This document shows, piece by piece, positions 7,870 through 37,523 of a DNA stretch of 43,602 bases. A model generated the notes under the pieces. That model had not been told where the DNA came from. It made no database searches and saw only the letters and a list, made by a program, of their open reading frames with translations. Numbering within the stretch: the first letter of the stretch is position 1; each line of letters opens with the position of its first letter. Source of the stretch: an uncultured Geobacter sp. (GTDB lineage: Bacteria > Desulfobacterota > Desulfuromonadia > Geobacterales > DSM-12255); NCBI GenBank assembly GCA_937860145.1, contig CALMBF010000177.1:1-43602 (forward strand), read 5' to 3'. Made by a program: the position numbers and the translations under genes.

Positions 7870-7897
7870 GGAGGTACGGACAGGGGCGCCATCCCGC

Positions 7898-8104
7898 TCA
7901 GTCGCCAAGGGGGGTTGGAAAACAGACATTATGGGGGAGATTGGCCTTGGCGCCGCATTTCCTGCAGGATACCGTCGGGGTGCAGGTGAGATGGTACACC
8001 TCCTTGAGCAGTCCCATGTTGGTGAGCCAGCAGATATGACCCTTGTGCAGCTCGCCGCAGGAACATATCAATTCGGTGTCGTCGTAAGGAGCATGTTCTA
8101 TCAT
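7898..8104 (-). CDS. small Cys-rich protein, probable metal-binding
   Basis: A 68-residue protein of unknown function. The start at 8104 has AAAGG about seven bases upstream, and an in-frame start further out adds 36 residues without a better site. It has two Cys/His clusters (ICSCGELHKGHIC and LTCTPTVSCRKCG) with spacing like a zinc ribbon or treble clef. It has no signal peptide or membrane segment. It lies 28 bases before the PAP2 gene and may be co-transcribed with it. Intact Cys pairs and a plausible Shine-Dalgarno support a real gene, but no homologue was recognised. Confidence 0.6.
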   Translation of the reverse strand: MIEHAPYDDTELICSCGELHKGHICWLTNMGLLKEVYHLTCTPTVSCRKCGAKANLPHNVCFPTPLGD

Positions 8105-15843: not shown

Positions 15844-17703
15844 CTATTTTCTGTACACCTTCCAGACCAGTCCCGTGTCCGAATTGAACTTGGTAATACT
15901 GTCGGAATCCTCCATGTTACCCGTAAACGAGGAATCATCCTCCCAGAGAACACCTTCGGGCATCATCAGCCTGGCCACCTCGGTTTCTCCGGAAACCTTT
16001 CTGCCGGCGAGTTGCTTGACATGCGCATCGAACAGCTTGAGCGAAAATTTCCCGTCGGCAGGCGCGCTCCCCTTCTGCTCCACCAGGAAAACGTACACCC
16101 CCTCCCTCGCCCGCTCCAGAACCGCCTCAAGGGTGTTCTTCGAACTTCTCACGATAATCGGGGTCAGTTTCTGTAATGCCTTCGCCTCCCCCCTGGACAT
16201 GGGCTTGCCGTGCTTTCCCTTGGGATATTCGATGAAAAGAATCTTGATCGACAGGTCATCTTCCGAGTGGACAGCCAGCTTGATGTCTCCCTTGATGGGG
16301 GGGAGAGCGATACCCGCCCCCTTTTCCTGTTTTACCGGCTGTTTTGGTTCGACAGGTGCGTTCAGGGGAGGTGCTGGTGCTGTGTCGGCCTTGGCAGGGA
16401 CACTGCTGCTGACCCGGGCAGGGACCGACGACGCGCCGGTAGCGTTTCCGGCGACCTGCCGTGCAGGTTCCTTGGAGGGTTGAACCGGCCTGACAAGATC
16501 CGCCTTGAGCTTTGCGGCTTTTTCTGCCGCTGCGTGTGCCTGGGCCAGCCTCTCCTTTTCCCGCAACTCTCTTTCAACCTTCAATCGTGCAGCACGTTCC
16601 CGGCGTGATTGCTCCTCTGCCGCCTTCTGACGTGCCAACTGCTCTGCCACCAGCTTCTCCCGAGCCGCTTTTTCCCGAGCCGCTTTCTCTCTGGCTGCAT
16701 TCTCCTGCGCCAACTGCTCTGCAGCTGCTTTCTCCCTGGCGGCCTTTTCTCGCGCCAACTTTTCTGCCGCAAGCCGCTCCCTGGCCGCCTTCTCCCGGGC
16801 CTGCCGTTCTGCCGCAGCCTTCTCCCTGGCTGCTTTCTCACGTGCAACCTGCTCTGCCGCAAGCCGCTCCCTGACCGCCTTCTCCTGCGCCAATTGCTCA
16901 GCCGCCGCTTTCTCCCTGGCGGCCTTTTCCCGCGCCATCTGCTCTGCTACCCGTTGTTCCCTGGCCGCAGCCTCCCGAGCCTGCCGCTCCATCTCCGCTC
17001 TTTTTACCGACTCAGCCGCCCGCAGATTCTCTTCTGCCTGTAGTGCCGCCTGCCTCTCTGCTTCCAGACGGACCCTCTGCTCATTTTCAGCACGCTGGCT
17101 GCCAATATCTGATTGCACCACAGGAACGGGCTTGGCAGTTTCACCACGGCTCGGCTCGCTTTCAGGCGGCGTTACCGCCGGCTTTGTTTCGCCGCTTGCC
17201 GTGGCGGGAACGGGCAGACCGGGTTCGGGAGGCTGCTCTGGCGGACGACTCTTGGATTTTCCAACTTTCCTGGGAAGCTTTTTCGTAACCCTGGGGACAT
17301 CCCTGCTTTGAACTGGTTCCGGTTTGATTTTCGCGGGAGGTGGCGTCACAACTGCAACGGCATCGACAGCCTCCTCCGGGGTGGCGGCAGGTGGGGGCAG
17401 TTCGCTCTCTTCCCCGGTCTCCTCGACCGGAGTGGCAACCTTTTCGGAGAGTTCCCCGGGAGGTGGTGCCGGTGCCGGTAGTGCCACGTCTCCCCCCTGA
17501 GGCTCGGCGGGGATATCATCCGCAGGGCCGAGATCCGCCCAGATGAAGTTGAAGTCAAACCGTTCACTGTTAGCAATCGGAGGGTAGTAGATGGCTGTTG
17601 TGGCCAGTATGGCGACCAGGATGCAATGGAATACCCACGAGGCAAGGAATGCCCCGAGAAGTCCCCGGTAATCCGTTTTGTTGTAACGTTGCGGGTTCAA
17701 CAT
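15844..17703 (-). CDS. TolA-like membrane-anchored periplasmic protein with coiled coil
   Basis: A 619-residue protein with one N-terminal transmembrane anchor (about 16-40), then a Pro/Glu-rich stretch (about 60-200) suited to crossing the periplasm. A long Ala/Lys/Glu/Arg helix follows (about 203-403), and a Ser/Pro/Ala-rich linker leads to a mixed C-terminal domain (about 470-619). Residues 257-346 are six tandem 15-residue units of the form AREKAAREKAAAEQL, arranged as three 30-residue pairs. This layout resembles TolA and TonB proteins, but the C-terminal domain is not one I recognise and no tolQRB genes are nearby. It is the last gene of the minus-strand glycosylation operon and overlaps the GT87 gene by seven bases. 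A role linking the inner membrane to the outer envelope is inferred. Confidence 0.75.
   Translation of the reverse strand: MLNPQRYNKTDYRGLLGAFLASWVFHCILVAILATTAIYYPPIANSERFDFNFIWADLGPADDIPAEPQGGDVALPAPAPPPGELSEKVATPVEETGEESELPPPAATPEEAVDAVAVVTPPPAKIKPEPVQSRDVPRVTKKLPRKVGKSKSRPPEQPPEPGLPVPATASGETKPAVTPPESEPSRGETAKPVPVVQSDIGSQRAENEQRVRLEAERQAALQAEENLRAAESVKRAEMERQAREAAAREQRVAEQMAREKAAREKAAAEQLAQEKAVRERLAAEQVAREKAAREKAAAERQAREKAARERLAAEKLAREKAAREKAAAEQLAQENAAREKAAREKAAREKLVAEQLARQKAAEEQSRRERAARLKVERELREKERLAQAHAAAEKAAKLKADLVRPVQPSKEPARQVAGNATGASSVPARVSSSVPAKADTAPAPPLNAPVEPKQPVKQEKGAGIALPPIKGDIKLAVHSEDDLSIKILFIEYPKGKHGKPMSRGEAKALQKLTPIIVRSSKNTLEAVLERAREGVYVFLVEQKGSAPADGKFSLKLFDAHVKQLAGRKVSGETEVARLMMPEGVLWEDDSSFTGNMEDSDSITKFNSDTGLVWKVYRK
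16666..16935 (-). repeat. six tandem 45-bp coding repeats in the TolA-like gene
   Basis: The DNA encodes residues 257-346 of the TolA-like protein as six 45-bp units with a 90-bp higher-order period. The repeats are in frame, so copy-number change by slippage would lengthen or shorten the helix by 15 residues per unit without a frameshift. Confidence 0.8.
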
Positions 17704-19016
17704 ACCTGACTCCCGCCACTATCCGGACAGGACAGCCCATAACCTGTGCCGTTGTGTTCCCGGCTTTCCCGGCAGTAATAGATGACCGCAAAAACAAGAA
17801 CGATCTTTGCTGCGAACAGTCCCCAGCGGCACCCCACGAAAAACGGACCGAAGGCGGGGGAAAGGAATGGTAGCAGCAGCAGGAAAGCAAACAGGGCGGA
17901 TTCGTACGGGTTGAGCCTCTTCACCACCGGGATGCACAAGGGGACCAGGAGAACAAGCTGGAGTTCCTCCGTGGAGCTGACGTGGGGGCAGAAGAGCAGA
18001 TAGGATAAGAGGGCCAACGCCCAGCATCCGGCCTGCTGCAATTTCAGGCGAGCTGCAAACAACGTCATCCCTGCCAGGGAACAGAGCCACAGGACCGTCG
18101 AGATCCTGCTGGCCACGTTGTCGGGCATGCCAAAGTCGACATTCAGGATGGAGCGGAGGTTGGCCATGTGGGCGGGGACGAGCGACCATGCGTATGCCCT
18201 GTCCGCCTGAACCAGGTCGTAGCGGGCGATCATGTGCAGGTAGTCACGGATCCAGCCGGCACCGAGCAGGGGGGTGATGAATGCGGTCGTCGCAAGGGTC
18301 AACCCTAGGGCGATCATGAGGGGCTGCCATTTTTTCAGTGCCACGAGCACGGCGCCGGCGGTCAGGGCCAACGGAGGCTTGGCCGTGAGCACCCATAACG
18401 CCGTGCCAGCATAGAGTGCCCGCCTGGCGTTGCCGTCATGTTCCCGGTTTTGCGTGCTTTCAGCCAGGAACAGCAGGCTGGCACCGGTCACAAGAGCGGT
18501 TTGCCCCAGCAACATGCACGCAGAAAAGAGCGGGCTGAAAAACGGGACCAGGCCGAACCCCAGGCGACAACGGTTCGGCCTGGTCTGCCACCAGACGCTC
18601 AGAAGCCCTGCGACATTGAAAATGCAGAAGGCAGTCGCGTGGGGGAAAAACACAAGGGGGGCCAGCAGCCAGATCATCGTCGGCGAGTACCCGAAGGGGA
18701 GCGCATAGGAACTGCTGGTACCAGCCCACTTCCCTGTTGCAACGAGGTGATGTGCGACCGAGTAGACAGAATCCGCAGGACTTCCCGTTGGTTTGCCGGT
18801 CCAGGCCTCTTTCACAAAGTTAACATGTGACGCAAAATCGATGATGACGGTTTCTGTACGAGTTATTGCGATACCGAATGCAGTCCCTTCCTTCAGCGCC
18901 GGCAGCAGCACTTTCTGGGAGATGATGACGACAAGCAGCATCCAGAGGATGAGATGAACCCCTGAGGCGATCAGAGTACGATCCGGCTTGTCACCCCACA
19001 CGACGGCTTTACGCAT
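17697..19016 (-). CDS. GT87-family polytopic glycosyltransferase
   Basis: A 439-residue integral membrane protein with about ten hydrophobic segments. It matches the general layout of the GT87 (DUF2029) GT-C family: an acidic first outer loop (IDFASHVNFVKEAW), a long loop with Pro/Tyr-rich FGYSPTMIWLLAP, and the later LLGQTALVTG block where family members have a Gly-Gln pair. Known GT87 enzymes use polyprenyl-phosphate sugars on the outer face of the inner membrane. The acceptor here is unknown. It ends overlapping the TolA-like gene by seven bases and starts 27 bases after the GT2 gene, so it belongs to the same operon. Confidence 0.72.
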   Translation of the reverse strand: MRKAVVWGDKPDRTLIASGVHLILWMLLVVIISQKVLLPALKEGTAFGIAITRTETVIIDFASHVNFVKEAWTGKPTGSPADSVYSVAHHLVATGKWAGTSSSYALPFGYSPTMIWLLAPLVFFPHATAFCIFNVAGLLSVWWQTRPNRCRLGFGLVPFFSPLFSACMLLGQTALVTGASLLFLAESTQNREHDGNARRALYAGTALWVLTAKPPLALTAGAVLVALKKWQPLMIALGLTLATTAFITPLLGAGWIRDYLHMIARYDLVQADRAYAWSLVPAHMANLRSILNVDFGMPDNVASRISTVLWLCSLAGMTLFAARLKLQQAGCWALALLSYLLFCPHVSSTEELQLVLLVPLCIPVVKRLNPYESALFAFLLLLPFLSPAFGPFFVGCRWGLFAAKIVLVFAVIYYCRESREHNGTGYGLSCPDSGGSQVC

Positions 19017-19043
19017 GTCAGGACTCCCAGAGTGGTTACAGCC

Positions 19044-19826
19044 CTAATCCGAAGCGAGAAGATAATCTACATAGCGTTTGCGGGCAGGCGTATGCAACAA
19101 GATGAACAGGGTACAAAACTCCAGACCGCCAATGACAAAGTCCTTCAATCTGACCTTGGAACCCTTTACGTCTATCCACTCCTGGAGCGGATATTCATAC
19201 CACTGGGAACATGCCCGAGATGGCGGGCACCCCATGACCAGAGGGAATCTGGCCAGCATCTCCACATCGAAGGTCCAGTTGACCCTGAACGGTTTTCCGA
19301 AAACCTTGCGCAACGGCGCCGAGTTCTTGAATATTTTTGCTCCACACTGAGTGTCATACACGACCATTTCGATCAAGAGGGACGCGCAGGTCGCAAAAAT
19401 CCGGCCGACATAATGCCTGAGGGGATTCCGCTCGACGTTCCTCCCCAGAAGGCGGATACGCGAACCGATCACGACGGTGACGTCAGTAGCGTCGAGGATG
19501 CTGCAAAACTCTCCGATCGCCTCCAGTGGCGTCGCCAGGTCGGCGTCCCAGTACCCGACATTGTCAAACGGACCGTCAGTCAGCTTCAGCATGCCACGGC
19601 GCACGGCTTCCGCTTTACCGCAATTTGCCTCGAGACTTAACACGTCCACCCTCTCCCTGTTTTTTTCTCTGATACCGCAGAGAACGGAGAGGGTGTCATC
19701 CGTACTGCCGTCGTTTACGAAGAGAAATGACAGGTTGGGTTCTTTGTCGAGTGCGGCCAGGAACGAATCTGTGTGTATCCGTTTCGACTCGTTGTAACAG
19801 GGGACCACTATTCCGGTTTTTCGCAT
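19044..19826 (-). CDS. GT2 glycosyltransferase, ALG5-like polyprenyl-phosphate sugar synthase
   Basis: A GT-A-fold GT2 enzyme of about 260 residues. It shows the N-terminal PCYNES block, VNDGSTDDT, NCGKAEAVRRGM, and the metal/nucleotide-sugar DAD in YWDADLATP. This combination, with IGSR later, resembles dolichyl-phosphate glucosyltransferase (ALG5) and bacterial relatives that load a sugar from a nucleotide donor onto undecaprenyl phosphate. Unlike GtrB-type enzymes it has no C-terminal pair of transmembrane helices; only a weak hydrophobic stretch lies near the end. Either the ATG at 19826 or one at 19835 could be the start, and both overlap the methyltransferase stop. It could supply the lipid-linked donor for the GT-C enzymes encoded around it. 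Confidence 0.85.
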   Translation of the reverse strand: MRKTGIVVPCYNESKRIHTDSFLAALDKEPNLSFLFVNDGSTDDTLSVLCGIREKNRERVDVLSLEANCGKAEAVRRGMLKLTDGPFDNVGYWDADLATPLEAIGEFCSILDATDVTVVIGSRIRLLGRNVERNPLRHYVGRIFATCASLLIEMVVYDTQCGAKIFKNSAPLRKVFGKPFRVNWTFDVEMLARFPLVMGCPPSRACSQWYEYPLQEWIDVKGSKVRLKDFVIGGLEFCTLFILLHTPARKRYVDYLLASD

Positions 19827-20545
19827 AGAACCCATCCGGTAAGACCGGGGATTTTGATCCCCAGCCGGGACAATGCAATCAGCACGGCATTGTCAAGATC
19901 GAGAAGTTTTTCGAGTATGAATGTCAAGCTCTTTCCTCCATGCCATCCCCCTACCCCCTCGGAATAGTCTTCCCGGCCCAGAACGTTGCAGAGAAAATGC
20001 TTGGGAAGGAGGAGTGACGCAAACAGGTAGCCCGAAGAAAGGATCCTCAGCCCCCCTGACCGAACCAGGGACTCCAGTCCCCGGAGGCTGTAACGCCGGT
20101 AGTGGCCCAGCTTGACATCGTGTCGGCCATAAATCGACTGGAAGGCCGGGACCGTTATCATGACCCTGCCCCCCCCTGCCAGGTAGCGGTTGGCAATACC
20201 GGCAAGAAAGGCGGCATCGTCCTCCACATGTTCCAGGACATCGAGAAGCATGCAGAGATCATAGCAACCGTTGTCGGGGAGGTCGCGCACGTAGCGGATT
20301 CCACCGGGCGAGCTATTGAACCGGAGCAACTGGTCATCCGTCAGGTGTATATCAACAGCGGTTACCTCTTTCTCCTGTAGACGGGAAAAAAGGTTTTCCG
20401 AAATAAACCCGTCGCCGCACCCCACATCGAGGACCTTGATCCCGCTGAAGAGATGGGGAGCCAGGATGTTATGGAGTGCCCTGAGCCGGGCCGTTTCCCA
20501 GGGGTGCCTTTTAACCTTTGTATTGTTAAATTCTTTAAGGTCCAT
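19808..20545 (-). CDS. class I SAM-dependent methyltransferase
   Basis: A 245-residue Rossmann-fold methyltransferase. Motif I, VLDVGCGDGF, is at 38-47, and the post-I acidic residue is in VTAVDIH. The later blocks LLDVLEHVEDD and RVMITVPAF are typical of the Methyltransf_11/23 groups that act on small molecules, lipids or sugars. The C-terminal third is hydrophobic (FASLLLPKHFLCNVLG), suggesting membrane association. It overlaps the GT2 gene, so the two are translationally coupled. A polyprenyl or glycan intermediate as substrate is inferred from the neighbours only. Confidence 0.85.
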   Translation of the reverse strand: MDLKEFNNTKVKRHPWETARLRALHNILAPHLFSGIKVLDVGCGDGFISENLFSRLQEKEVTAVDIHLTDDQLLRFNSSPGGIRYVRDLPDNGCYDLCMLLDVLEHVEDDAAFLAGIANRYLAGGGRVMITVPAFQSIYGRHDVKLGHYRRYSLRGLESLVRSGGLRILSSGYLFASLLLPKHFLCNVLGREDYSEGVGGWHGGKSLTFILEKLLDLDNAVLIALSRLGIKIPGLTGWVLCEKPE

Positions 20546-20621
20546 TGAGCCTTCGTTTTGAATTCGTTTACTTTAGAGCATGTCTCATCAAGAGGTGGCA
20601 CTGTACCAGCAAAACTTCATT

Positions 20622-21737
20622 TCATTCAAGCCGCCCCAATACCCTCTCGGCAAACATCCGGGAACTGATAATATATGCAAGTTTACCCAACAATATACCC
20701 GCTATTCCATCGGACAGATAATGCCACCCAAGATACATTGTTGCCATTATGAACAAAAAGAGGAACATCCACAAAAGGAAACGAAACCCGGGGAAATATT
20801 TACCCAAAACTATTACTGAGAGATAGACAAGGGCAATATGCAGGCTCGGCATGGCCACTATACCGTTGCCACTGATAATCGTGGTATGCAAAGGATTCGC
20901 TTTGAACGAAAGATAGTGATCCAGCAACCTCTGCATATCGACGTAAGAAACAGTATTATTTATATCTTCAAAAAGTCCCGGATTATAGAATGCCGGACCG
21001 AGCGAAGGGAAAGTGACCGATATGGGGATCGAAATCCCGAAGGCGAGGCACCATGCTGCCGAAAATCTCCAAAACGTGAGACGTTCACGATATGAGCAGA
21101 CAAGGGTCATACATGTCAGAGCCCACATCTGGTAATAAATTACATCGAAAAATTGGGTAACGAGCGGATGTCTAGGAAACGAGACGGCACCTCCAAACGA
21201 TAAGACATGTAACAGCCTGCCATCCCAGCGGAACAAGATCTCATCGTACAGTGTTGTGTTAAGCACTGGAATTGCTGGCTTCAAGTTAGTGTATCCGATC
21301 AATACTGCATAAACCAGACAGTACACAATCACGCCACACAACAGATATTCTGACGAACAATATCTGCTAGTAAACTCTTTCAATAGAACTCGCAAAGGTT
21401 TGGGTAACTCACGATGCCTGCCGTCTCTGATTTCATTAACTATATCGCAAAACAAAATACAGAGCGGACCAATAACGAGGTAATAAACAACAAAGAAAAA
21501 TACGAAAACGGTCGGCAATCCCTCCGGAATCCACGAGAAATTCAAACCATTTCTCCAGCAGACAAATCTGGCACCTGCAATAAACAAGGCAATACAGCCA
21601 AACAACCAGAAAATACCCGCCTGGAATGTGTCAATTCCGGAACGAAGTGATGATTCAGATACGACCCTTATTATGCCCGCACCTATCGTTTTCACAAAAC
21701 TACAATTTGTTCGTATAACTGTATCCCGAATAGACAT
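20622..21737 (-). CDS. Aur1-like PAP2-superfamily membrane enzyme
   Basis: A 371-residue polytopic protein with the motifs of the inositol-phosphoceramide synthase (Aur1) branch of the PAP2 superfamily: FPSLGPAFYNPG, then AMPSLHIA with the catalytic-type His, and YLGWHYLSDGIAG with the second His and Asp. These are the C2- and C3-type phosphatase/transferase motifs. Bacterial relatives transfer or release phosphate-linked head groups of lipids. In this operon it could recycle a polyprenyl phosphate or add a phospho-linked group to a glycan. Base composition is somewhat lower in GC than the flanking genes. A perfect AT-rich dyad lies upstream (21816-21834). Confidence 0.78.
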   Translation of the reverse strand: MSIRDTVIRTNCSFVKTIGAGIIRVVSESSLRSGIDTFQAGIFWLFGCIALFIAGARFVCWRNGLNFSWIPEGLPTVFVFFFVVYYLVIGPLCILFCDIVNEIRDGRHRELPKPLRVLLKEFTSRYCSSEYLLCGVIVYCLVYAVLIGYTNLKPAIPVLNTTLYDEILFRWDGRLLHVLSFGGAVSFPRHPLVTQFFDVIYYQMWALTCMTLVCSYRERLTFWRFSAAWCLAFGISIPISVTFPSLGPAFYNPGLFEDINNTVSYVDMQRLLDHYLSFKANPLHTTIISGNGIVAMPSLHIALVYLSVIVLGKYFPGFRFLLWMFLFLFIMATMYLGWHYLSDGIAGILLGKLAYIISSRMFAERVLGRLE

Positions 21738-21815
21738 ACCAGCTACTCCAATCGGCTCATCCGATCATAATTCACAAGCAGACCTTCATGTAACTGACCA
21801 GCTATTTGAGTAACA

Positions 21816-21834
21816 CATGATAAAATATATCATG
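21816..21834. promoter_or_regulatory. perfect AT-rich dyad upstream of the Aur1-like gene
   Basis: CATGATA and TATCATG form a perfect 7-bp inverted repeat around five bases, in the only sizeable gap (117 bases) inside the glycosylation operon. It could be an operator for an internal promoter or an RNA hairpin. No T-run follows, so it is not a convincing terminator. Confidence 0.4.
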
Positions 21835-21854
21835 CGCCAGGCATGTTCTGCACT

Positions 21855-23420
21855 TTACAATGAAAGTGCAGGTGTATTGCCTGTAAAAAGTTTTATGTTC
21901 GAGAATTTTTGGATCAATTCTTGATGCTTTGGTATATTTTTTACAAATATACTGGCGACTTTATCAGAATAAATCAATTTCCAATTCCCGCTCATCGTGA
22001 GAACGCGAGTAAGAATCGAATTGGTGTCGAAAAATATCCAGGTGATGTTGTATTTATCAAGTGTCGTCTCCCACCCTGGCTCCAAATCAGTCACGCGACA
22101 ATATTCTTTCACCCTCTCCGAACCATACATATCAAGACGTCCGTCGATGAAGACCTTGTACTGTTGCGTCAAGGCATAAATCACACAGTCGCCGAACTCA
22201 TCGTTATTGAACATGTTACCCGTGACATGGTGGTCCCGGAGGAACTTCAGGGCAGCCATCGGTTTTTTTTCGGGATCGAACGAGTGAGTCACCGTGCCGT
22301 TCAACGCAAGGACTGCCAGGAAAACGACTCCCGCCACCGGCCAGAGATACCCCTGCGCCATGGTGTCAACCGACGCGATATTCTCTACCCTCGTACGGAG
22401 AAACCCTTCGAGTTTCGGGAAGGACGATAGGCAATCGCGCTCGATGTACCGCATGATGATCGGCATGACGACCACGCCGTACAGGGGGATGTACCTGACG
22501 GAATAGAGCGACATGCTCGTAAAGAGAAGAGTCAATGCGGTCTCGATGAACGTGGGCTTTCTCTTGGCATAGGCAAATACCACGAACAAAAGCAGGAGTA
22601 TGTACTTTAACGGCTGAGGTTCATGAAAATTGGGTGACAGGAATTCGCTCGTGTGATCCATGATATATTTGTTGGAAACCAGCTTGAGCGGAAACAGGAA
22701 GATGTGGTACCCGGTCGGATTCACCAGGCATGCGGCAATTGATAACGCAAGGGATCTTCCCAGCACCCACGCCTTTTCCCTCCCATCGGTAACCCACCTC
22801 GCTTTATCGGTAAACAGCAGCTGTACATTCCCGGCACAGTAGATCCCCATAATAGCCAGGCCGATGATATAGCCACCGTGAAGGTTCACCCAGAGAATCA
22901 TGATCAGGGGGAGAAGCCAGAGACGGTTTTTCTGTCGATACTGGTAGTCATCCAGCAGACGACACCAGACAAGCAGGATAACAAGGGAAAAGATATGGGG
23001 CCGTGCCAGCCAGTGAACCTTGGCAAGCGTGACAAACACGATGCTGGCCGCAACCGACGAAAGGATATTGTTCCCCTCCGACGTGATACCCCTGAAAAAT
23101 ATCCGTACGCTCACCGCGACCATGAGTGCGAAGCCGAACACAACCGCGGTAAGGCCTCCGACAGTGTGCAAAAGGGACATGATCACTTCCGCAAGCCACT
23201 CGTGGGCAGTCCACGGTATGGTCGGCGTTATGAAGGAGAAGATGTCCTCTCTGGGTATCGATAACGTGGTGAGGATATAGTCGCCGACGCGGATGTGATA
23301 TCCGGTGTCTCCATCGCCGAGGAAATCACTCCCCATGGGGAGGGCGAGGTAGAAGAGAACCGACAGGAACAGTACATCTGCGATTGAGGGGAGTATCCAG
23401 TTCTTCAGCCGATCGGTCAT
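21855..23420 (-). CDS. large polytopic GT-C-like membrane protein
   Basis: A 521-residue protein with about eleven to thirteen hydrophobic segments and a soluble C-terminal part of about 130 residues. The first outer loop carries DGDTGYHIRVGDYIL and then PWTAHEWLAEV. A DxxxHIR-type loop followed by a W/H/E-rich stretch recurs in uncharacterised bacterial proteins predicted to have a GT-C glycosyltransferase fold, where the first-loop acidic residues would be catalytic. I know of no biochemically tested member. Its start overlaps the stop of the TMTC-like gene upstream as ATGA. The donor is presumably a polyprenyl-phosphate sugar; the acceptor is unknown. Confidence 0.65.
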   Translation of the reverse strand: MTDRLKNWILPSIADVLFLSVLFYLALPMGSDFLGDGDTGYHIRVGDYILTTLSIPREDIFSFITPTIPWTAHEWLAEVIMSLLHTVGGLTAVVFGFALMVAVSVRIFFRGITSEGNNILSSVAASIVFVTLAKVHWLARPHIFSLVILLVWCRLLDDYQYRQKNRLWLLPLIMILWVNLHGGYIIGLAIMGIYCAGNVQLLFTDKARWVTDGREKAWVLGRSLALSIAACLVNPTGYHIFLFPLKLVSNKYIMDHTSEFLSPNFHEPQPLKYILLLLFVVFAYAKRKPTFIETALTLLFTSMSLYSVRYIPLYGVVVMPIIMRYIERDCLSSFPKLEGFLRTRVENIASVDTMAQGYLWPVAGVVFLAVLALNGTVTHSFDPEKKPMAALKFLRDHHVTGNMFNNDEFGDCVIYALTQQYKVFIDGRLDMYGSERVKEYCRVTDLEPGWETTLDKYNITWIFFDTNSILTRVLTMSGNWKLIYSDKVASIFVKNIPKHQELIQKFSNIKLFTGNTPALSL

Positions 23421-24808
23421 TGTGCCTTGCTATCCTTTGGGGGGGATGATGCCTGCCTGCCCCCTTCATCACGGTTGATGGTGGTCATGCAGGTACGGTA
23501 CAGATCATTCTCGAATTTCATCTCCCGGGCCCGTTGCAGGCTTTTCTTAGCATCGGCAATCCTCCCCGCCTGGATGAGCTCATACGCATACACTACGTGT
23601 GCCTGGGGAAGCCCGGGGGAATTGGTGACGGTGTCTCGCCACAAGGCCACCGGATCGGCCCATTGCCCGGAACGGTGTATGGTGGTGATCGCGAGGGGGA
23701 TGATCAGCAGAAACGGGAGCGGCTGGGGTATGCGCCGGCTCTTTGCCGCCAACAGCCCGACAAGGAGAGCCGTACCGGTCATGGAAAGGTACAGGTAGCG
23801 TTCCGCATACAGGGTCCAGGGGATGCTGCCGTGTAGCGCCAGCAGCGGGGGTCCCAGACAGAAGACGATGATGAGCAGGGGCAACCGGGACACTTTGAAA
23901 CGGACAAAGCAGCTGATGATGACGAGAACGGCCACAATCCCGACAGCAGCGTAGAAGGGTTCGTATATGCTCTGGATTGCCAGGTTGAGTGGAAACGGCC
24001 AGGCCATCTTCTTGAGGTAAAAGCCGAAGGCGGCCAGGCTCTTGTAAGCCAGCTCCAACACGGATTGGTGGGCGATCTTGGTCACGATCTTCGAGGTGCC
24101 GCTGTCCAACTCCCCTCGGGGACCAAGCCGCAACAGCAGGTATGATGCACTGACAATGGCGACGGTACCGCTCAGGACCCATTTTGCCACCCTCGTCCTT
24201 CTGTCCGCGACCGTCAGCAGGTAAAACGGCACAATCCCCAGGAGGGCGAAGGATGACTCCTTGGCAAGGAGGGAGAAAGAGTAGAGGATGAGCAGGGTCC
24301 CCGCCGCAGACAGCGGGGCAAGCCGCTCGTTCACAACCACCAGGAGGGAGCAGAGGAAGAAAAAGCAACAGAGGCTATCGGTGCGGCCGCTTACCCAGAG
24401 GACCGACTCGCTGTTGAGTGGCGATACCGCAAAAAAGAGCGCCGAAAGAAAAGCGCTCCCTTCGCGCTTCGGGCTCTCCGGCAGACAAGTGCGGCAGAGA
24501 TGGTACACAAGACAGGCGTTGGCCAGGTGTAGGATGAGATTGGTCAGGTGGAAGGCGACGGGATGAGCTCCCCAGAGATTGAAATCCACCAGGTAGGTCA
24601 GGAGAGTCATCGGTCTCAGGTACGTCATCCCCCCGGAAGGAGCCAGGGATGCAAAGTTCAGAGCTCCTTTCTGTAGGTCTTCCATCAGGCCGGTATCATC
24701 AAGGCTGGAAAAAGCAGAGACGAAAACAGAGAGGTAGACAAGAAGGGTAATGTCTATCAGAAGTAGAAAATTAATTTTTCTGTTGGCAAATAAAGACATG
24801 TTTCCCAT
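23417..24808 (-). CDS. TMTC-like GT-C glycosyltransferase with C-terminal helical (TPR-like) tail
   Basis: A polytopic protein of about 463 residues. It matches the TMTC/DUF1736 pattern of O-mannosyltransferase-like proteins: an acidic loop (SSLDDTGL), RPMTLLTY followed by GAHPVAFHLTN, VSGRTDSL, LLAKESS and ERYLYLS, in the order seen in that family. About 70 residues at the C-terminus are helical with a TPR-like AYELIQAGRIADAKKSLQRA. Eukaryotic TMTC enzymes O-mannosylate cadherins, and bacterial members are uncharacterised. The start is uncertain: ATGs at 24874, 24808 and 24799 are all in frame and none has a strong Shine-Dalgarno. I give 24808, shortly before the first membrane helix. It is the first gene of the operon. 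Confidence 0.7.
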   Translation of the reverse strand: MGNMSLFANRKINFLLLIDITLLVYLSVFVSAFSSLDDTGLMEDLQKGALNFASLAPSGGMTYLRPMTLLTYLVDFNLWGAHPVAFHLTNLILHLANACLVYHLCRTCLPESPKREGSAFLSALFFAVSPLNSESVLWVSGRTDSLCCFFFLCSLLVVVNERLAPLSAAGTLLILYSFSLLAKESSFALLGIVPFYLLTVADRRTRVAKWVLSGTVAIVSASYLLLRLGPRGELDSGTSKIVTKIAHQSVLELAYKSLAAFGFYLKKMAWPFPLNLAIQSIYEPFYAAVGIVAVLVIISCFVRFKVSRLPLLIIVFCLGPPLLALHGSIPWTLYAERYLYLSMTGTALLVGLLAAKSRRIPQPLPFLLIIPLAITTIHRSGQWADPVALWRDTVTNSPGLPQAHVVYAYELIQAGRIADAKKSLQRAREMKFENDLYRTCMTTINRDEGGRQASSPPKDSKAQ

Positions 24809-25212
24809 TGTCACCGCGAAATGAAGTCTTGAACAAAAGCTATTAAACTCATCAGCCTCATGCTCACATAACATTGCCTGATCACTACTGTCAGCCCTTC
24901 CTTTTGGACCATTAAAATCATGCAGTGTTTTTATAAAAGGTATTGACTCAACACCTAAGTCGTTGTAGCAGTGTTACAAAATAAAAACCGAAATATCCTC
25001 GATGAATTTCATATTTAAGCAATAACCAGCTTAAGACTAGCAATGAGACAACGTTTAAAATAAAGACCTGCTCTCATTTTTTTACAGGAAATGCCTAACT
25101 CCCCTTTCCTACTGGCAGCAATCGGCGCGCCTATCGTTTAATTAACAACAACAGATACTTGAAACTAATCACCTAAGTCGACAATTGCTCTGGAGTATAG
25201 TAATCTTGTACA
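24809..25212. other. AT-rich gap between the glycosylation operon and the foreign gene pair
   Basis: About 400 bases without a clear gene, with composition falling toward the AT-rich island. The 11-mer CACCTAAGTCG occurs twice in direct orientation (24952-24962 and 25170-25180). An AATGAGA/TCTCATT pair (25042-25048 and 25072-25078) followed by Ts is a weak terminator-like hairpin on the plus strand with a long loop. TATAGT at about 25195 could be a -10 box for the next gene, but no -35 or Shine-Dalgarno is evident. Confidence 0.5.
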
Positions 25213-26814
25213 ATGAACAAAGAATCATTTAAAAATCTTGAGATTGCATCACACATAAAACCACAGAACCTATTGACGGTATGCTTTTTTTTACTATATT
25301 TAATAATTGGACTTCTTATTTATGATAATTTTGGTGCAACTTGGGATGAGCCACTTAACAGAGATTTAGGAATTACAAGTTGTAAATATATCCAAGCGTA
25401 TATTTCAGGTAACAAGATTGCATGGTCAGATATTTCGCAGCATCTGATCGCAGAGCAAGGTCCATTTTATGAAATAGTCTTAGTAGCGATAGAGAAGTTA
25501 ATTAATATTCATGACTCACATGATATTTTGATGCTCAGACATCTCATTACATTCTTGACATTTTGGTTTGGAACTATCGCATTTTATATGTTGTTATATA
25601 AAAGACTTGGCTGCAGTTACATTTCATTATTTGGTACATTACTTCTAATACTCTCACCTCGCCTTTTTTCTCATACATTTTACAACTCTAAAGATGCTGC
25701 ACTAACGGCTTTATTTATTATTTGCACTTTGACGTTGATTATGTCTTTTGATAAGAAATCAGTTTATAATGCTATTATCCACGCACTATCATGCGCTATA
25801 GTGATAGATACAAGAGCAGTTGGTTTAGTCTTACCTACAATAACTTATTTGTGTCTGTATATGCAAGCACGCAACGACAACACGGAATTACACTTAAGAA
25901 AAATAATGCTTTATACAGTCGTGTATACGGCTTTCCTTTCTATCTTTATATATGCATTTTGGCCTGCGCTCTGGGATGCTCCGATTAGCAATTTAATTAA
26001 ATACATAAGCAATATATCTGCGGCTAAGCAATTAGACAACAACTTCTCATTGTACATGGGCAGATTTATACGTGTCGACCAACTTCCATGGCACTATCTT
26101 CCCGTGTGGATGACAATAACACTTCCACTGCCTTATACATTTTTCTTAACTATGGGGGTATTTATAATTTGCCACAACTTAACATTTAGCCGCAAAATAG
26201 CTCACAATAACCTATTCGATTTGATTTTATTATCACTACTTATAATTCCAATAATAGCAGTAATTATTATTAGACCTATATTATACGATGACTGGAGACA
26301 TTTTTATTTTTTACACCCCTACATTATAGCTATAGCAACTATTGGGATATCTAACATAATTAAAATACATAAACTGAGAAATCTAGTTATTATAACAGCA
26401 ATACTGATTGTTATACACGGCATTTCAATATTAGTATACTATCATCCGTATCAAAATATATACTTTAATCAACTAGCCGGATCAAATATTGATAAGAATT
26501 TTGAACTGGATTATTGGGGGTTGTCATTCAAAGAAGGACTGAATTTCATTTTAAAAGACCAAAGTGGAAAATGTTCAAAAGTAGCAGTATCAGACTATCC
26601 AGGTGAAGTAAACCATCTTTTTCTCAAACGAGATGATAGGGATCGCATACAGATTGTTCCAATACAAGAAGCTTCTTACTTCTTATCCAACCATCGTCAA
26701 CCCGTTAATTATACGTTGTTCTATACACAACACTATCCATGTATCAACGAGATACATAAAGTCAACATTGGAAAAACAACTCTTGCTGGTGTATTTAAAT
26801 TAAATAATAATTAA
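25213..26814 (+). CDS. PMT/GT39-like GT-C membrane protein (AT-rich)
   Basis: A 533-residue polytopic protein with about eleven hydrophobic segments. The first outer loop has TWDEPLNRD, the acidic-pair pattern of the PMT_2/GT-C group. A later loop has RLFSHTFYNSKDAAL, resembling the second conserved loop in those enzymes. The C-terminal 120 residues are soluble. By eye the gene is about one third GC with many AAA, ATA and TTA codons, unlike the neighbours at about 60%, and it has no recognisable Shine-Dalgarno, which suggests recent horizontal acquisition. It converges with the next AT-rich gene. The product is likely a membrane glycosyltransferase of unknown donor and acceptor. Confidence 0.68.
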   Translation: MNKESFKNLEIASHIKPQNLLTVCFFLLYLIIGLLIYDNFGATWDEPLNRDLGITSCKYIQAYISGNKIAWSDISQHLIAEQGPFYEIVLVAIEKLINIHDSHDILMLRHLITFLTFWFGTIAFYMLLYKRLGCSYISLFGTLLLILSPRLFSHTFYNSKDAALTALFIICTLTLIMSFDKKSVYNAIIHALSCAIVIDTRAVGLVLPTITYLCLYMQARNDNTELHLRKIMLYTVVYTAFLSIFIYAFWPALWDAPISNLIKYISNISAAKQLDNNFSLYMGRFIRVDQLPWHYLPVWMTITLPLPYTFFLTMGVFIICHNLTFSRKIAHNNLFDLILLSLLIIPIIAVIIIRPILYDDWRHFYFLHPYIIAIATIGISNIIKIHKLRNLVIITAILIVIHGISILVYYHPYQNIYFNQLAGSNIDKNFELDYWGLSFKEGLNFILKDQSGKCSKVAVSDYPGEVNHLFLKRDDRDRIQIVPIQEASYFLSNHRQPVNYTLFYTQHYPCINEIHKVNIGKTTLAGVFKLNNN

Positions 26815-26852
26815 TTGCACTAAAATACACTTTACAACATTACCACCCGATA

Positions 26853-28223
26853 TTATGTCATTTTACCATTACAACTAGATACAATGCTAGTATTACCAAC
26901 TTTATGTAGTAGCAATAAGATTCCTACGACAACTAAGGCAGGAAACATACCTATTTGAGCTATTAAGAATGCTATTTTACTATTTGTAACACTTACTTCT
27001 TTTATACTCATCAATATATCAATAATTGCATTTATAGTGCTTTGCGGAACAAGGAGTGCTGCCACTATAAACATGTAAAGTATATTATATTCAGATGCTA
27101 ACTTTCGCTTTATATAATATTTACCAATAATTACCATAGGTATTAATGTAAGAATCAAATAATGATTCCAAGCAATGGGCGCTATTAATATGCTCACACA
27201 GAGCAATATTCCGAAAGATATATCAAAATCTGCACTTCTGCGCGCCGAAGTCATACCAAATACAAGCACAATAAGCGGAAGTACACAGGCTAAATATCCT
27301 GCAAACTCAGACGATTGTATAAGAGGTGGTGCAGTTACCCCAACAAGCACCTTCGAACCAGTACCTTCCAACGCTTTCCAGCTTAAAGACCATAAGGAAA
27401 AATTTGATACAAAAGAATGATATAGCGAAGCAACTTTGGGGCCAGTTTCCAGGTAATACGTTATAACAGATGACCATCCCATGATAAATATAGCCATAAA
27501 ATTAGCAAGTACAACTGTTGTGAAGGCAGCAATTACAGCTTTCCACCTCTTGCACAACGTTAAATAAACTAGTATCGGCCAAACAATCAACTTAAATGAA
27601 ATGGCCAAACCCAGCAATAATCCGCCGCTCAATTCTTGCTTATTATGTAGCTTTTGCCACGCACATACCAATAGCGCAAGAATAAATAGCATCAACTGCC
27701 CAAGAACAATTTCAACTATTACTGGATTCCATGCCAAAATAGCTAAAGATGCAACCAATACTTCTATTACAGTAAGACGCTTATTTATTATTAACAATAT
27801 ATAACAAGCTATTATTACAATACAAAACAACTCAAAAATAAACCATACTATTGCTGCCATATTATATGTCAATATTCCTAAAGGCAACATAAGAACAGCA
27901 ACTGGAGGTGGGTGCGGAGTCGGGTGTTGAAAAATTGTAACTGGTAATTGTCCAAATATTAGTTCACCCAATGTTGATAGCTGTAAATATGGGTTTGTAC
28001 CACTCAGGACTGCTTTTGCTAACATATATTCTTGTATAAAATCTTTTTTGTATATATTTACTGAATTAAATGAATCAAAACTATCAACCAACTGGATCAT
28101 ACCTAAAATTGATACAGTTAGCATAATCATTATTTTCAAGGTGTTAATTATGTTTTCTTTTGAATTTACAGTATTCATGTTATATGCACTATTTAATTTA
28201 CTGAAAACAATATTATTTCTCAT
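26853..28223 (-). CDS. second GT87-family membrane glycosyltransferase (AT-rich)
   Basis: A 456-residue polytopic protein of the GT87 (DUF2029) kind. It has the acidic loop KKDFIQEYMLAKAV, the NPY block after it, an HPTPHPPPVA loop, and NPVIVEIVLGQ, where the family has its conserved Gly-Gln. These are clearer than in the GT87 at 17697-19016. Composition is strongly AT-rich like the convergent gene beside it, so the two probably arrived together. A start at the ATG 45 bases inside (Met16) is possible because the first 15 residues look unstructured and lack a good ribosome site. It follows the DUF192 gene by 104 bases on the same strand with no evident terminator, so read-through from the Tad operon is possible. 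Confidence 0.75.
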   Translation of the reverse strand: MRNNIVFSKLNSAYNMNTVNSKENIINTLKIMIMLTVSILGMIQLVDSFDSFNSVNIYKKDFIQEYMLAKAVLSGTNPYLQLSTLGELIFGQLPVTIFQHPTPHPPPVAVLMLPLGILTYNMAAIVWFIFELFCIVIIACYILLIINKRLTVIEVLVASLAILAWNPVIVEIVLGQLMLFILALLVCAWQKLHNKQELSGGLLLGLAISFKLIVWPILVYLTLCKRWKAVIAAFTTVVLANFMAIFIMGWSSVITYYLETGPKVASLYHSFVSNFSLWSLSWKALEGTGSKVLVGVTAPPLIQSSEFAGYLACVLPLIVLVFGMTSARRSADFDISFGILLCVSILIAPIAWNHYLILTLIPMVIIGKYYIKRKLASEYNILYMFIVAALLVPQSTINAIIDILMSIKEVSVTNSKIAFLIAQIGMFPALVVVGILLLLHKVGNTSIVSSCNGKMT

Positions 28224-28327: not shown

Positions 28328-28672
28328 TCATGGTTTGAAATCAACAACGTCTCCCTTGGTCAGATTGACTGCCAACACCGTGGAGGACGGCAATTCCAGA
28401 ACCGTCGCGGCTTGGGGATATACCGCGGTCATACGATTGGGCTTGAGCCCGCTGATGATTTTAATGACACAGTTGTCCCGATCCAGGAAAACCACGTCGA
28501 TGGCGAACTTCATGCCAAAGGTATGAACCCCCTTACACGGCTTCAACCAGAGGCCCCAACCGTAGGGGAGAGAATCCCGACCCAGAAGGCCCTTCATGCG
28601 CGTTAAAATGGAATCGGCAACCATAAGGTTGCCGACCAGTTCTATTCCTGAGTATCCGATAAGAGCTTTCAT
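28328..28672 (-). CDS. DUF192-family protein
   Basis: A 114-residue protein of the DUF192 family. Diagnostic blocks are RMKGLLGRDSL, the GMKFAIDVVFLD core strand, and the C-terminal LELPSSTVLAVNLTKGDVV. The family is a small beta-barrel with no settled function; many members are secreted, but this one has no signal peptide and so would act in the cytoplasm. It follows tadC and the 27-codon gene in the same direction and is probably the end of the Tad transcript. A role in pilus biogenesis is inferred only from position. Confidence 0.82.
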   Translation of the reverse strand: MKALIGYSGIELVGNLMVADSILTRMKGLLGRDSLPYGWGLWLKPCKGVHTFGMKFAIDVVFLDRDNCVIKIISGLKPNRMTAVYPQAATVLELPSSTVLAVNLTKGDVVDFKP

Positions 28673-28871: not shown

Positions 28872-29786
28872 TCATGGAAACGCTTTCATCATGGTAATAA
28901 CTGCCGGGCCCAGAATAACTATCAGCAGCGCCGGAAACACGAAAAAGATCAGGGGGAAAAGCATCTTGACCGACGTCTTGGCGGCAGCCTCTTCGGCTAT
29001 TTGCCGCCTCTTGGTCCGCAGGGAATCAGAGTGCACCCGGAGCGCCTGGCTCAGACTGGTGCCAAATCTCTCGGTCTGAATCAACATGGTGACGAATGCC
29101 TTGATATCGTCAACCATCGTACGGTCAGCCATATCTTTCAGCGCATCGGTCCGGAGCTTGCCGGCCCTTATTTCCATGCTCGCGCGCTTCATCTCCTCGG
29201 TCAGGGGGTTCCCCTTGAATTGCGGATTGTCGCTGGCCTTTACGAGAGCGGCGTCTATACTGACCCCGGCCTCGACACAGATGGTAAGAAGGTCAAGAAT
29301 ATCGGGCAACGTGTGGAAGATTTCGGTAGTCCGGGCCTGAACCTTGCGCTGCAGATACAGGCTCGGGGCAAGAAAACCGAAAATGAGAAGCCCCACTTCC
29401 AGCAGCAGCATCTTGGGATTCAAGACCAACCCTTTCGGGAGCGCCACAAACAAAACAACGGGGAGCGGCAGCAACACCGCGAGCAGCAACTTGGAACCCA
29501 TGAAAATATAGATGCTTTCCCTGTGGTATCCTGCTGCTACGAGATACTGGGTATATTTTGATTTTTCTTTTGGTGACGTCGGGACTTTCTCGCCCAGACC
29601 TGCCAGGAAAGTCTGAAAAGGTGTTTTTTGCCTGACGATGCCGACCTTTGACATCTCCGACTGCTTCGGCATAAGCTTCTCAAGCCGCTCCTGTACGACC
29701 GAGCGCCTTGTCAGAAGCAGGTAGAGAGGAATGCCGGTAAGGAGGGCGACACTGACAAATGCTAACAAGACTACGAGATAGAGCAT
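28872..29786 (-). CDS. tadC: Tad pilus inner-membrane platform protein TadC
   Basis: A 304-residue T2SSF-fold membrane protein, one half of the Flp pilus inner-membrane platform. It has an N-terminal helix (4-26), a cytoplasmic stretch, paired membrane segments near 95-115 and 125-148, the conserved LPDILDLLTICVEAGVS block typical of TadC, and a C-terminal membrane segment (270-295). It starts eight bases after tadB. TadB and TadC are thought to form a heteromeric platform driven by TadA. Confidence 0.92.
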   Translation of the reverse strand: MLYLVVLLAFVSVALLTGIPLYLLLTRRSVVQERLEKLMPKQSEMSKVGIVRQKTPFQTFLAGLGEKVPTSPKEKSKYTQYLVAAGYHRESIYIFMGSKLLLAVLLPLPVVLFVALPKGLVLNPKMLLLEVGLLIFGFLAPSLYLQRKVQARTTEIFHTLPDILDLLTICVEAGVSIDAALVKASDNPQFKGNPLTEEMKRASMEIRAGKLRTDALKDMADRTMVDDIKAFVTMLIQTERFGTSLSQALRVHSDSLRTKRRQIAEEAAAKTSVKMLFPLIFFVFPALLIVILGPAVITMMKAFP

Positions 29787-29794
29787 GGCAGGCC

Positions 29795-30757
29795 TCAGAT
29801 CCTGATGTTAATGATTTTCCTGATAAAGAAGTAGCCCAGAATCTGCATGATAGCCGCGAACATCAGAAAATAATTGCCAATCTTTTCCTTGATAAGCAAC
29901 TGCTCGTATGCCGGATTAAGCACATTGAATACAAAGAATACGCATATGGGTAAGGCTGCAAGTACATATCCCGACAGGCGCCCCTGGGCAGTATACACCC
30001 TCACCTGACGCCGTATGTTCAAACGCTCCAGGATGGTCTTTGCCAATTTGTCGAGCGTTTCGGACAGATTCCCGCCAGTCTCGGAATTTATGCTGACGGT
30101 CGTGACAAAAAAACGAAGATCCAGGCTTTCTATCCGATCGAGCATGTTCGTAAGGGTATCGATTATGCTCATCCCCAGTTTCTGCTGTTCATATGCGGTT
30201 CGGAAGAGCTCCCCTGACGGATCCGGCGTTTCGAGGCCGACCAGTTCAACCGCACTTGTCATGGAGTGCCCCGCCCTGAGCGACCGGGAAATCATCATCA
30301 ATACATCGGGCAACTGCTCGGTAAGCTTATCCACCCGCCTCAGTATCAGGAAACGAACGGTCAGTATAATCAAGAAAATGACAAACAGCGCCATAAGTAT
30401 TGCGGGCAGCGCCTTGTGCCAGAACAGGTAAACCCCGATTGCAGGAACAATTGCCGCCGTACACGAATACATCAAAAAATTATGCAGCTGTATTTTCAGG
30501 CCGGCCCTGTCCAGACTCCGGTCAATAGAGCGAAACAGGCGATAACTGGTGAGAATACGTTCAACCCTGGGTATTTCTTTAAGTATTTCGCTGCGGACTT
30601 CATCGGGCATGTTGCCGTTTGCTTTATTGATGGCAAGCCTTCTGAGCCTCATTCTCAAGGCAAAGGTAGGAGATTCCTTGACCGTCGTAACAGCGAGAAA
30701 AATCGCTGATACCACGAGGAATACGGCTACAAAGGTAAGTAGGACAGGAATGAACAC
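29795..30757 (-). CDS. tadB: Tad pilus inner-membrane platform protein TadB
   Basis: A 320-residue T2SSF-fold platform protein. Membrane segments lie at about 3-25, 90-135 and 265-315, and the conserved LPDVLMMISRSLRAGHS block is typical of TadB. It lies between tadA (62-base gap) and tadC (8-base gap) in the usual tadABC order. Together with TadC it should couple TadA ATP hydrolysis to pilin extraction from the membrane. Confidence 0.92.
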   Translation of the reverse strand: MFIPVLLTFVAVFLVVSAIFLAVTTVKESPTFALRMRLRRLAINKANGNMPDEVRSEILKEIPRVERILTSYRLFRSIDRSLDRAGLKIQLHNFLMYSCTAAIVPAIGVYLFWHKALPAILMALFVIFLIILTVRFLILRRVDKLTEQLPDVLMMISRSLRAGHSMTSAVELVGLETPDPSGELFRTAYEQQKLGMSIIDTLTNMLDRIESLDLRFFVTTVSINSETGGNLSETLDKLAKTILERLNIRRQVRVYTAQGRLSGYVLAALPICVFFVFNVLNPAYEQLLIKEKIGNYFLMFAAIMQILGYFFIRKIINIRI

Positions 30758-30819
30758 CAGGGACTCCTTTTCATGCTACGTGGTCACGTCTCCCGTGCGA
30801 GCATGGATACATATCGGGG

Positions 30820-32127
30820 TTAATCGAAAATCCCTTCCGGCAACTCATAGCCAGACACCTTGAAGCGTTCGGCAAAGCGGGGGCGGATCCCTGTCGCCTT
30901 GTATTCGCCGACAACTTTGCCGTCCTTGTCGATACCTTTCTGATCGAAGATAAAGATATCCTGCATGACGATGGTATTCCCTTCCATGCCGGTAATTTCA
31001 GAAATCTTTGTTACCCTTCTGGTTCCATCGGAGAAGCGGACAAGTTGCACGATTATGTTTATTGCTGCGGCAATCTGCTCTCGAACAGCCCGTTCGGGGA
31101 GGTCCATACCGGCCATCAGCACCATGGTATCAAGACGGGCAAGCGCGTCACGACTTGTGTTGGCATGGATTGTCGACATGGAGCCGTCGTGACCCGTGTT
31201 CATCGCCTGGAGCATGTCGAGGGCCTCACCACCGCGAACCTCACCGAGGATGATCCGATCAGGCCTCATCCTGAGAGCATTCTTGACAAGATCCCGTTGG
31301 GTTACCTCACCTCGACCCTCGATGTTCGGCGGACGGGTTTCCAGTCTAACCACGTGCTCCTGCTTGAGAATCAATTCCGCCGAATCCTCGATGGTGACAA
31401 TCCGCTCGCTGCGGGGGATATATTCCGAAAGCACGTTCAGCAGGGTCGTCTTACCCGTACCGGTACCGCCCGATATGATCACGTTGAGCCGCGTACGGAC
31501 CGCCCCTTCCAGAATAATTTTCATCCGTTCATCGATGGACCCGATGAGAAGCAGATCACTCATTTTCAAAGGATCTACGCCGAATCTGCGGATGGAAAGC
31601 ACCGGCCCGTCAATGGCCAGGGGCGGGATGATGGCATTGACCCTGGAGCCATCGGGGAGACGTGCATCTACATAGGGGGAAGATTCGTCGATCCGGCGAC
31701 CGACCCTGGAGACGATCCGCTCGATGATCTGCATCAGGTGCTTGTTATCACGGAAAATGATGTTGGTTTTTTCCAGTCTCCCCTTCCGCTCTATGTAGAC
31801 ACTTGAGGCATTGTTCACCAGAATATCCGAAATTGCCGGATCGGAGAGAAGCGGCTCCAATGGACCAAGGCCAAACGTTTCATGCTGAACTTCAACAACA
31901 AGACGATCCTTCTCCGCCTGGTTTAAGGGGACACCTTCCTCGACAATGAGAGATTCGATGATGTAACCTATCTCCCTGGCGAGTTCGTCACTGCTGAGCA
32001 GGTCAAGCTTCCCCAGGTCCAGCCTATCGATCAGCCGGCGGTGAATACGCGCCTTCAGATCCTGGAAAAAGAGAAGATCCTTTTGAACATCCGGGGTGCT
32101 CTTGCGTTCGAAATAATCGGCAAACAT
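30820..32127 (-). CDS. tadA: Tad pilus assembly/retraction ATPase TadA (CpaF)
   Basis: A 435-residue secretion ATPase of the CpaF/VirB11-like group. A helical N-terminal region (about 1-75) precedes the N-domain with [10 protein letters not shown]. Walker [10 protein letters not shown] is at 220-228. An Asp-box-like TIEDSAEL is at 245-252, Walker [16 protein letters not shown] is at about 291-305, and the His-box MSTIHAN follows at 317-323. All catalytic elements are intact. It should form a hexamer at the inner face of the membrane and power Flp pilus assembly and probably retraction through TadB/TadC. Confidence 0.96.
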
Positions 32128-32147
32128 CCGCTGCTCCCTCTTTTACA

Positions 32148-33278: not shown

Positions 33279-33297
33279 ATGACTTCCTGAAATAATG

Positions 33298-35798: not shown

Positions 35799-35831
35799 GT
35801 AAGCACCTCGTGCAGGATATGATTGCGATAG

Positions 35832-36773: not shown

Positions 36774-36797
36774 GGTTCCTCCGGAAAAATGGGATAT

Positions 36798-37226: not shown

Positions 37227-37284
37227 TCGCTTTCACACCACAAGGCTTGAGAAGGGACATCCGATAACGTCTACGGGTAGGGTA

Positions 37285-37482: not shown

Positions 37483-37498
37483 ATGTGCTCCTTGTAGA

Positions 37499-37523
37499 GG
37501 CAGGGGGGGAAATCCCCCCTGCC
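37499..37523 (-). promoter_or_regulatory. strong hairpin between the two pilin genes
   Basis: A perfect 10-bp GC-rich stem (37499-37508 with 37514-37523) around a five-base loop. On the minus strand no T-run follows; instead the flp2 Shine-Dalgarno comes next. Such hairpins after a first pilin gene can protect its 3' end or cause partial termination, giving more pilin than assembly proteins. Confidence 0.6.

Follow-up and report, generated by a model that had tools for sequence, protein, structure and literature searches.

A putative STT3-like glycosyltransferase associated with Tad pilus loci and accompanied by a variable set of glycan genes

Tad pili are widespread in bacteria, where they mediate adhesion, biofilm formation and predation, and to our knowledge little is known about their modification. 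STT3, DPY19, AglB and PglB are protein glycosyltransferases. In the type IVa pili of Pseudomonas aeruginosa, the membrane enzymes TfpO and TfpW act as pilin accessory glycosyltransferases that modify the major pilins, and this glycosylation protects from phages (PMC11841053). Glycosylation of the Tad pilin Flp has also been proposed, with RcpC implicated, in earlier work cited by a passage of PMC12307814, and that passage names no GT-C enzyme; a search of open-licence papers found none on a Tad-linked GT-C enzyme. The window analyzed here, a whole stretch of 43,602 nucleotides (contig C177; the draft genome comprises 3.96 Mb and has Geobacter-like bacteria among its close relatives), contains a complete Tad/Flp pilus locus and, directly downstream of it, an operon encoding a GT-C membrane protein that we call DTG after its DTGYHIR motif. 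The best explanation for this operon, which we hold with slightly better than even confidence, is a modular protein-glycosylation cassette dedicated to the Tad system, which would most likely act on Flp pilin or on some other protein exported by that system.

The fold of DTG places it near known protein glycosyltransferases. An AlphaFold2 model built from 23 orthologs (predicted local distance difference test, pLDDT, 84; predicted template modelling score, pTM, 0.84) returned yeast and human STT3 (E 2e-7) and DPY19 as its top Foldseek matches. In VIA-align comparisons, STT3 aligned with a Z score of 16.5 and a root mean square deviation of 4.7 over 446 residues (model residues 2-497), followed by DPY19 (15.1), AglB (14.4), PglB (13.9), Pmt1-Pmt2 (13.6) and ArnT (12.8), all well above unrelated entries. 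The C-terminal soluble domain aligned as in oligosaccharyltransferases (OSTs), and DTG hence displays, over nearly its whole length, the GT-C fold and C-terminal soluble domain of these enzymes. Across 30 diverse members, D36, D38, H136-W137, R140-P141-H142, W177, N179, H181, E259, R309, G410 and D426-G427 are invariant. The first outer loop holds D36 and D38, and a later one holds E259; these are positions at which, in our own mapping and not by structural superposition, OSTs keep their metal-binding acids. In the same mapping, D38-TGYHIR reads as the counterpart of the DPYxxxR first-loop Asp of STT3 and AglB, E259 as that of the later-loop Glu, and NNDEFGD as that of the WWDYG site. This conservation bears on the possibility that DTG is a non-catalytic assembly or platform component of the Tad machine, akin to the accessory protein TfpY, an aid to pilus assembly that is not known to be a glycosyltransferase (PMC11841053). 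The degeneracy of the OST motifs and the existence of gene-poor loci (L044) in which DUF192 and TolA-like genes are the sole companions of DTG would be in keeping with such a role, which the invariance of D36, D38 and E259 and the repeated presence of glycan-making genes beside DTG nevertheless render quite improbable.

The association of DTG with Tad loci is strong. Among 58 related genomes, scored as Tad-positive with CpaB and TadC as markers, close DTG orthologs (E below 1e-80) occur in 21, corresponding to 21 of the 24 Tad-positive and none of the 34 Tad-negative genomes (Fisher p 6e-13, a value made optimistic by the relatedness of the genomes). When 84,980 species genomes were scanned using only the DTG alignment, 79 loci emerged, and at least two Tad markers lie beside DTG in 38 of the 43 loci having at least 9 kb on both flanks. 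Tad-linked DTG loci are found in Geobacter, Geomonas, Oryzomonas, other Desulfuromonadales and the Desulfobacterales, and also in the Nitrospirae (L077, L084, L087), Candidatus Lindowbacteria (L089), the Chloroflexi (L123) and the Acidobacteria (L111, L120, L122, L125, L132-L135, L140). DTG follows TadC/DUF192 in Geobacter and the Nitrospirae, diverges from TadE in three loci (L048-L050) and directly precedes CpaB in the Acidobacteria; since gene order differs between these groups, the link does not stem from a single inherited arrangement. An even draw of 149 genomes from the Acidobacteriota (the phylum of L120) contained RcpC in 27; among the genomes with strong DTG matches, the share was 10/10 (p 8e-9). 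Of 12 such matches, 9 fall within about 11 kb of RcpC. Distant DTG relatives from the same clade (about 20-28% identity; L057-L062), used as a control, have Tad genes nearby in none of six cases. An ordinary surface-polysaccharide locus lying by chance near a Tad locus, for which one could invoke the general frequency of GT2, methyltransferase and GT87 genes in such loci and the gene turnover suggested by shifts in guanine-cytosine (GC) content, is strongly disfavored by this association across phyla. Furthermore, the operon and neighboring genes scanned include no flippase, polymerase or ligase of a Wzx/Wzy-type locus, as the sequence-only reading had noted, the rest of the genome not having been searched; we regard this explanation as very improbable indeed.

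The same-genus relative G001 carries tandem DTG genes (L051/L063) that are 42% and 59% identical to the window DTG. In a second type of Tad locus in Geomonas (L053-L056), a DTG paralog directly follows TadC and is succeeded by a small STAS-like protein, a CheA-like kinase and a CheW-like protein, all named by eye. Lastly, DTG is broken into two frames in L052 (G043:C1:1223238-1224760) and has an internal stop in L069, in both cases through decay or sequencing error.

In the window, the operon spans 24874 to 15844 on the minus strand, the same strand as the Tad locus. It is tightly packed, with overlaps between the TMTC-like gene and DTG, the methyltransferase and GT2, and GT87b and the TolA-like gene, and a terminator-like hairpin (15611-15582) lies 3' of the latter. 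In order of transcription, its genes are:
23417..24874, minus strand: TMTC-like GT-C enzyme, the swappable enzyme of the proposed cassette (GT-C fold model; directly upstream of DTG)
21855..23420, minus strand: DTG, the constant core enzyme, 521 residues, with an STT3/OST-like GT-C fold (no Pfam or NCBIfam family)
20622..21737, minus strand: PAP2_3 (Aur1-like) membrane phosphatase/phosphotransferase (Pfam PF14378 5e-23)
19808..20545, minus strand: S-adenosylmethionine-dependent methyltransferase (Pfam PF13489 8e-13)
19044..19835, minus strand: GT2 glycosyltransferase, the probable maker of a polyprenyl-phosphate sugar donor (Pfam PF00535 6e-14)
17697..19016, minus strand: GT87b, GT-C family GT87 (PF09594 E 2e-4, below the curated cut-off)
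15844..17703, minus strand: TolA-like envelope-spanning protein (no Pfam family)

All nine open reading frames of the sequence-only reading, these seven and two adjacent ones, are present where it had placed them, and its assignments of an Aur1-like phospho-transferase and a methyltransferase agree with the Pfam matches above; for its putative ALG5-like synthase, the match is to the GT2 family in general. Of the two GT87 enzymes it had named, the adjacent GT87a is a clear match (PF09594 E 3e-22), and GT87b falls short of the cut-off, which its relative in L037 exceeds. Its expectation that structure prediction would reveal GT-C folds is borne out by the models of DTG and the TMTC-like protein. 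The latter model (pLDDT 78) aligns over residues 25-410 with OST, ArnT and Pmt4 at Z scores of about 21-22. The protein carries the motifs DD, YRPL, SGRTD and KES, which we take to be TMTC-like; it has no Pfam TMTC domain, and only about 60 residues of helices follow its membrane part, with no long TPR region. Pfam likewise provides no family for the TolA-like, DTG, TMTC-like and PMT-like proteins. The TolA-like protein consists of an N-terminal transmembrane segment, a long charged and Ala-rich middle and a conserved C-terminal domain of about 130 residues; membership in TolA itself was rejected, as Pfam TolA gave no match, and the C-terminal domain has no named family. An anti-phage defence system was also considered and discarded, PADLOC returning a generic methyltransferase match only. 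A second PAP2-family phosphatase gene lies outside the operon at 7258-7929.

The Tad/Flp locus directly upstream of the operon, overlooked by the sequence-only reading, occupies 28872-37740 on the minus strand and comprises TadA, TadB/C, TadZ, RcpA, RcpC/CpaB, TadE and Flp, with Pfam matches to T2SSE (6e-69) and T2SSF (2e-20). In order of transcription, its genes and the one that follows them are:
37552-37740 and 37285-37482, minus strand: two Flp pilins, candidate substrates (Pfam Flp_Fap 1e-6, below the curated cut-off)
36798-37226, minus strand: TadE pseudopilin, candidate substrate (Pfam TadE 6e-20)
35832-36773, minus strand: RcpC/CpaB (Pfam RcpC 9e-32)
34332-35798, minus strand: secretin RcpA (Pfam Secretin 5e-48)
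33298-34353, minus strand: TadE/G-like protein (Pfam)
32148-33278, minus strand: TadZ (Pfam)
30820-32127, minus strand: TadA/CpaF (Pfam)
29795-30757, minus strand: TadB (by position and homologs in relatives)
28872-29786, minus strand: TadC (Pfam)
28328..28672, minus strand: DUF192 protein (Pfam PF02643), recurrent between TadC and DTG; present in 26 of the 79 named DTG loci

Operon genes have a GC content of 44-60%, and the Tad genes measured one of 49-61%. Between DUF192 and the TMTC-like gene, however, the window carries a segment of different composition:
25213..28223, both strands: AT-rich insertion, 33% GC, with a PMT-like gene (25213-26814, plus strand) and GT87a (26853-28223, minus strand)

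The sequence-only reading had joined these two genes to the operon in a single system with five GT-C proteins. The operon itself stands, but the five-protein unit was rejected: both genes have a GC content of 33%, neither has a counterpart in the same-genus relative G001, in which the order TadC-DUF192-TMTC-DTG-DTG shows no intervening genes, and none of the 79 DTG loci carries them. For these reasons, they are left out of the system and are probably a recent insertion. Elsewhere in the window, a single open reading frame of 791 residues (1022-3397) appears by eye to be a NuoB-NuoC-NuoD fusion, and an exported protein with repeated CxxCH motifs (8367-9053) is a likely multihaem cytochrome.

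The remaining operon genes recur with DTG in varying combinations. The TMTC-like gene accompanies DTG in 7 other loci. GT2 homologs are found in 18 named DTG loci (62% identity in L065), methyltransferase homologs in 8 (61% in L065 and L073), GT87b homologs in 3 (48-53% in L080 and L103) and TolA-like matches in 21. PAP2 has homologs (44-52%) in 3 DTG loci besides that of the window, and a further 14 Geobacterales-level loci preserve the C-terminal domain of the TolA-like protein. From genus to genus, different GT-C partners of DTG take each other's place (TMTC-like, TMEM260/PMT-like, DUF2079 and PTPS-related proteins), and GT2, methyltransferase and TolA-like genes frequently lie alongside. 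In Geobacter sp. AOG1 (L033), for instance, a TMEM260-like/PMT_2 enzyme fills the TMTC slot together with a PTPS-related protein; Geomonas azotofigens (L045) has a DUF2079 protein near DTG. The conserved co-occurrence anticipated by the sequence-only reading thus holds for DTG with Tad genes and for each other operon gene, present in three or more further DTG loci, but not for the complete window set, of which there is no second case among DTG loci. Because homologs of the auxiliary genes recur variably among DTG loci, the arrangement is one of a single core enzyme and a shared pool of swappable glycan genes. The Tad linkage and the GT-C folds are well supported computationally, and the swapping of auxiliary enzymes is likewise a computational finding.

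From the known chemistry of these enzyme families, we infer the catalytic role of DTG, its donor and acceptor, and the order of steps in the cassette. GT2 would load polyprenyl phosphate with a sugar, and the TMTC-like enzyme and GT87b would add or extend sugars in the periplasm from polyprenyl-phosphate sugar. The methyltransferase may cap or modify the glycan. DTG, as a compact STT3-like GT-C enzyme, would then work on the periplasmic side of the inner membrane and transfer a sugar or short glycan from the polyprenyl carrier to a Tad-pathway protein, either Flp pilin or a different protein that the system exports, while PAP2 could recycle or modify the lipid carrier and the TolA-like protein might tie the transfer step to the periplasm or outer membrane. 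The suggestion, made from sequence, that the genes decorate a protein or lipid on the outer face of the inner membrane fits the folds found, and the Tad context narrows it towards a pilus-related substrate. A [YF][ST] pair near the Flp C-terminus, present in 15 of 16 DTG-positive and 1 of 5 DTG-negative pilins, is a weak hint in the same direction, given related sequences and small numbers. An N-glycosylation sequon was rejected as the target: NxS/T appears in some DTG-positive Flp tails and in neither of the window's two pilins.

Several observations weigh against a Tad-dedicated protein glycosyltransferase. Mature Flp has only about 40 residues, with few Ser/Thr. No match to DTG was found in Pfam, NCBIfam or PDB sequences, whether with single members or with sets or profiles of 23 or 30 diverse members, so that a sequence-level link to a known family was discarded; specifically, neither the 30 members nor profiles A1 and A2 matched an OST family in Pfam or the PDB. 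The WWDYG motif is missing (NNDEFGDC in the window, NxDEWGDY in the consensus), and the DxD/DNE of the TM4 (fourth transmembrane) region appears to be replaced by HWLARPH. As judged from its model, DTG is therefore STT3-like in fold and not a GT66 member by sequence. Three Tad-positive genomes (G019, G026, G055) lack DTG, indicating that Tad pili do not in themselves depend on it. A lipid or some other protein as acceptor may also be compatible with these data.

Other Tad-exported proteins are the main rival to Flp as acceptor. The same cassette might act on an exported adhesin, lipoprotein or pseudopilin, such as TadE/G-like proteins or Big_1 lipoproteins, a reading that we consider unlikely, if the least so of the alternatives. 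In Geomonas cassettes, a Big_1 Ig-like lipoprotein lies between TadC and DUF192/DTG, together with an outer-membrane beta-barrel in L043 (13760-16338), L040 and L047 and on its own in L042, L045 and L046, and either product is a possible adhesin or glycosylation substrate. Flp, moreover, offers little exposed sequence, and eukaryotic TMTC and TMEM260 target cadherins and plexins, according to PMC11292533 and PMC13123603. The window locus, on the other hand, has no such lipoprotein, and DTG is also found in other loci lacking one. A second alternative, in which the target of the operon is a lipid of the membrane or a surface glycolipid, modified in the manner of ArnT or GT87, and adjacency of the operon to Tad genes reflects shared regulation of surface attachment, can draw on the frequent lipid activity of GT87, PAP2 and GT2 enzymes in general and on ArnT matching both DTG (Z 12.8) and the TMTC-like protein (Z 21.4-21.6). 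It seems improbable, since the closest folds to DTG are those of protein glycosyltransferases, with the C-terminal domain aligned as in OSTs, and co-occurrence with Tad genes extends over several phyla and gene orders.

Beyond the favored Tad-dedicated cassette, a broader proposal, to which we give somewhat less than even credence, is that DTG founds a new bacterial family of STT3-like protein glycosyltransferases dedicated to Tad/Flp pili in several phyla, in which swapping of neighboring GT-C enzymes varies the glycan. The Tad pili of each lineage could thereby be differently sugar-coated, which might serve surface recognition or defence against phages that bind pili. DTG accompanies Tad loci across phyla, has a fold like that of protein glycosyltransferases and is missing from family databases, and hence provides a concrete candidate enzyme with which the old suggestion of Flp glycosylation can be put to a direct test in cultivated strains of Geomonas, Oryzomonas or Geobacter.

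Comparison with known systems delimits what is new in this arrangement. DTG resembles the GT66 enzymes STT3, AglB and PglB in its GT-C fold (Z 13-16.5), its C-terminal soluble domain and, in our own mapping, putatively in a first-outer-loop Asp and a later-loop Glu, and differs from them in size (521 residues against about 640-870), in lacking a Pfam or PDB match at sequence level, in bearing NNDEFGDC/Y in place of WWDYG, in a TM4 region without DxD/DNE and, as regards its candidate acceptor Flp, in the lack of a conserved sequon. The TMTC-like protein shares its GT-C fold with the O-mannosyltransferases TMTC1-4 and TMEM260, a TMEM260-like/PMT_2 enzyme occupying its slot in L033, but is a bacterial protein of putative activity with neither the Pfam match nor the long TPR region of TMTC (GT105). 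The proposed modification agrees with RcpC-linked Flp glycosylation in its proposed target, a Tad pilin, and adds a candidate GT-C enzyme, of which the passage concerned (PMC12307814) names none. As with TfpO and TfpW, DTG is an accessory gene linked to a pilus locus; unlike them, it belongs to an STT3-like family, is found at type IVc (Tad) loci, forms part of a swappable multi-gene cassette and has a putative substrate. Glycosyltransferases linked to pili are not new in themselves; what is new is the tie between Tad pili and an STT3-like family missing from the catalogues, together with its swappable cassette.

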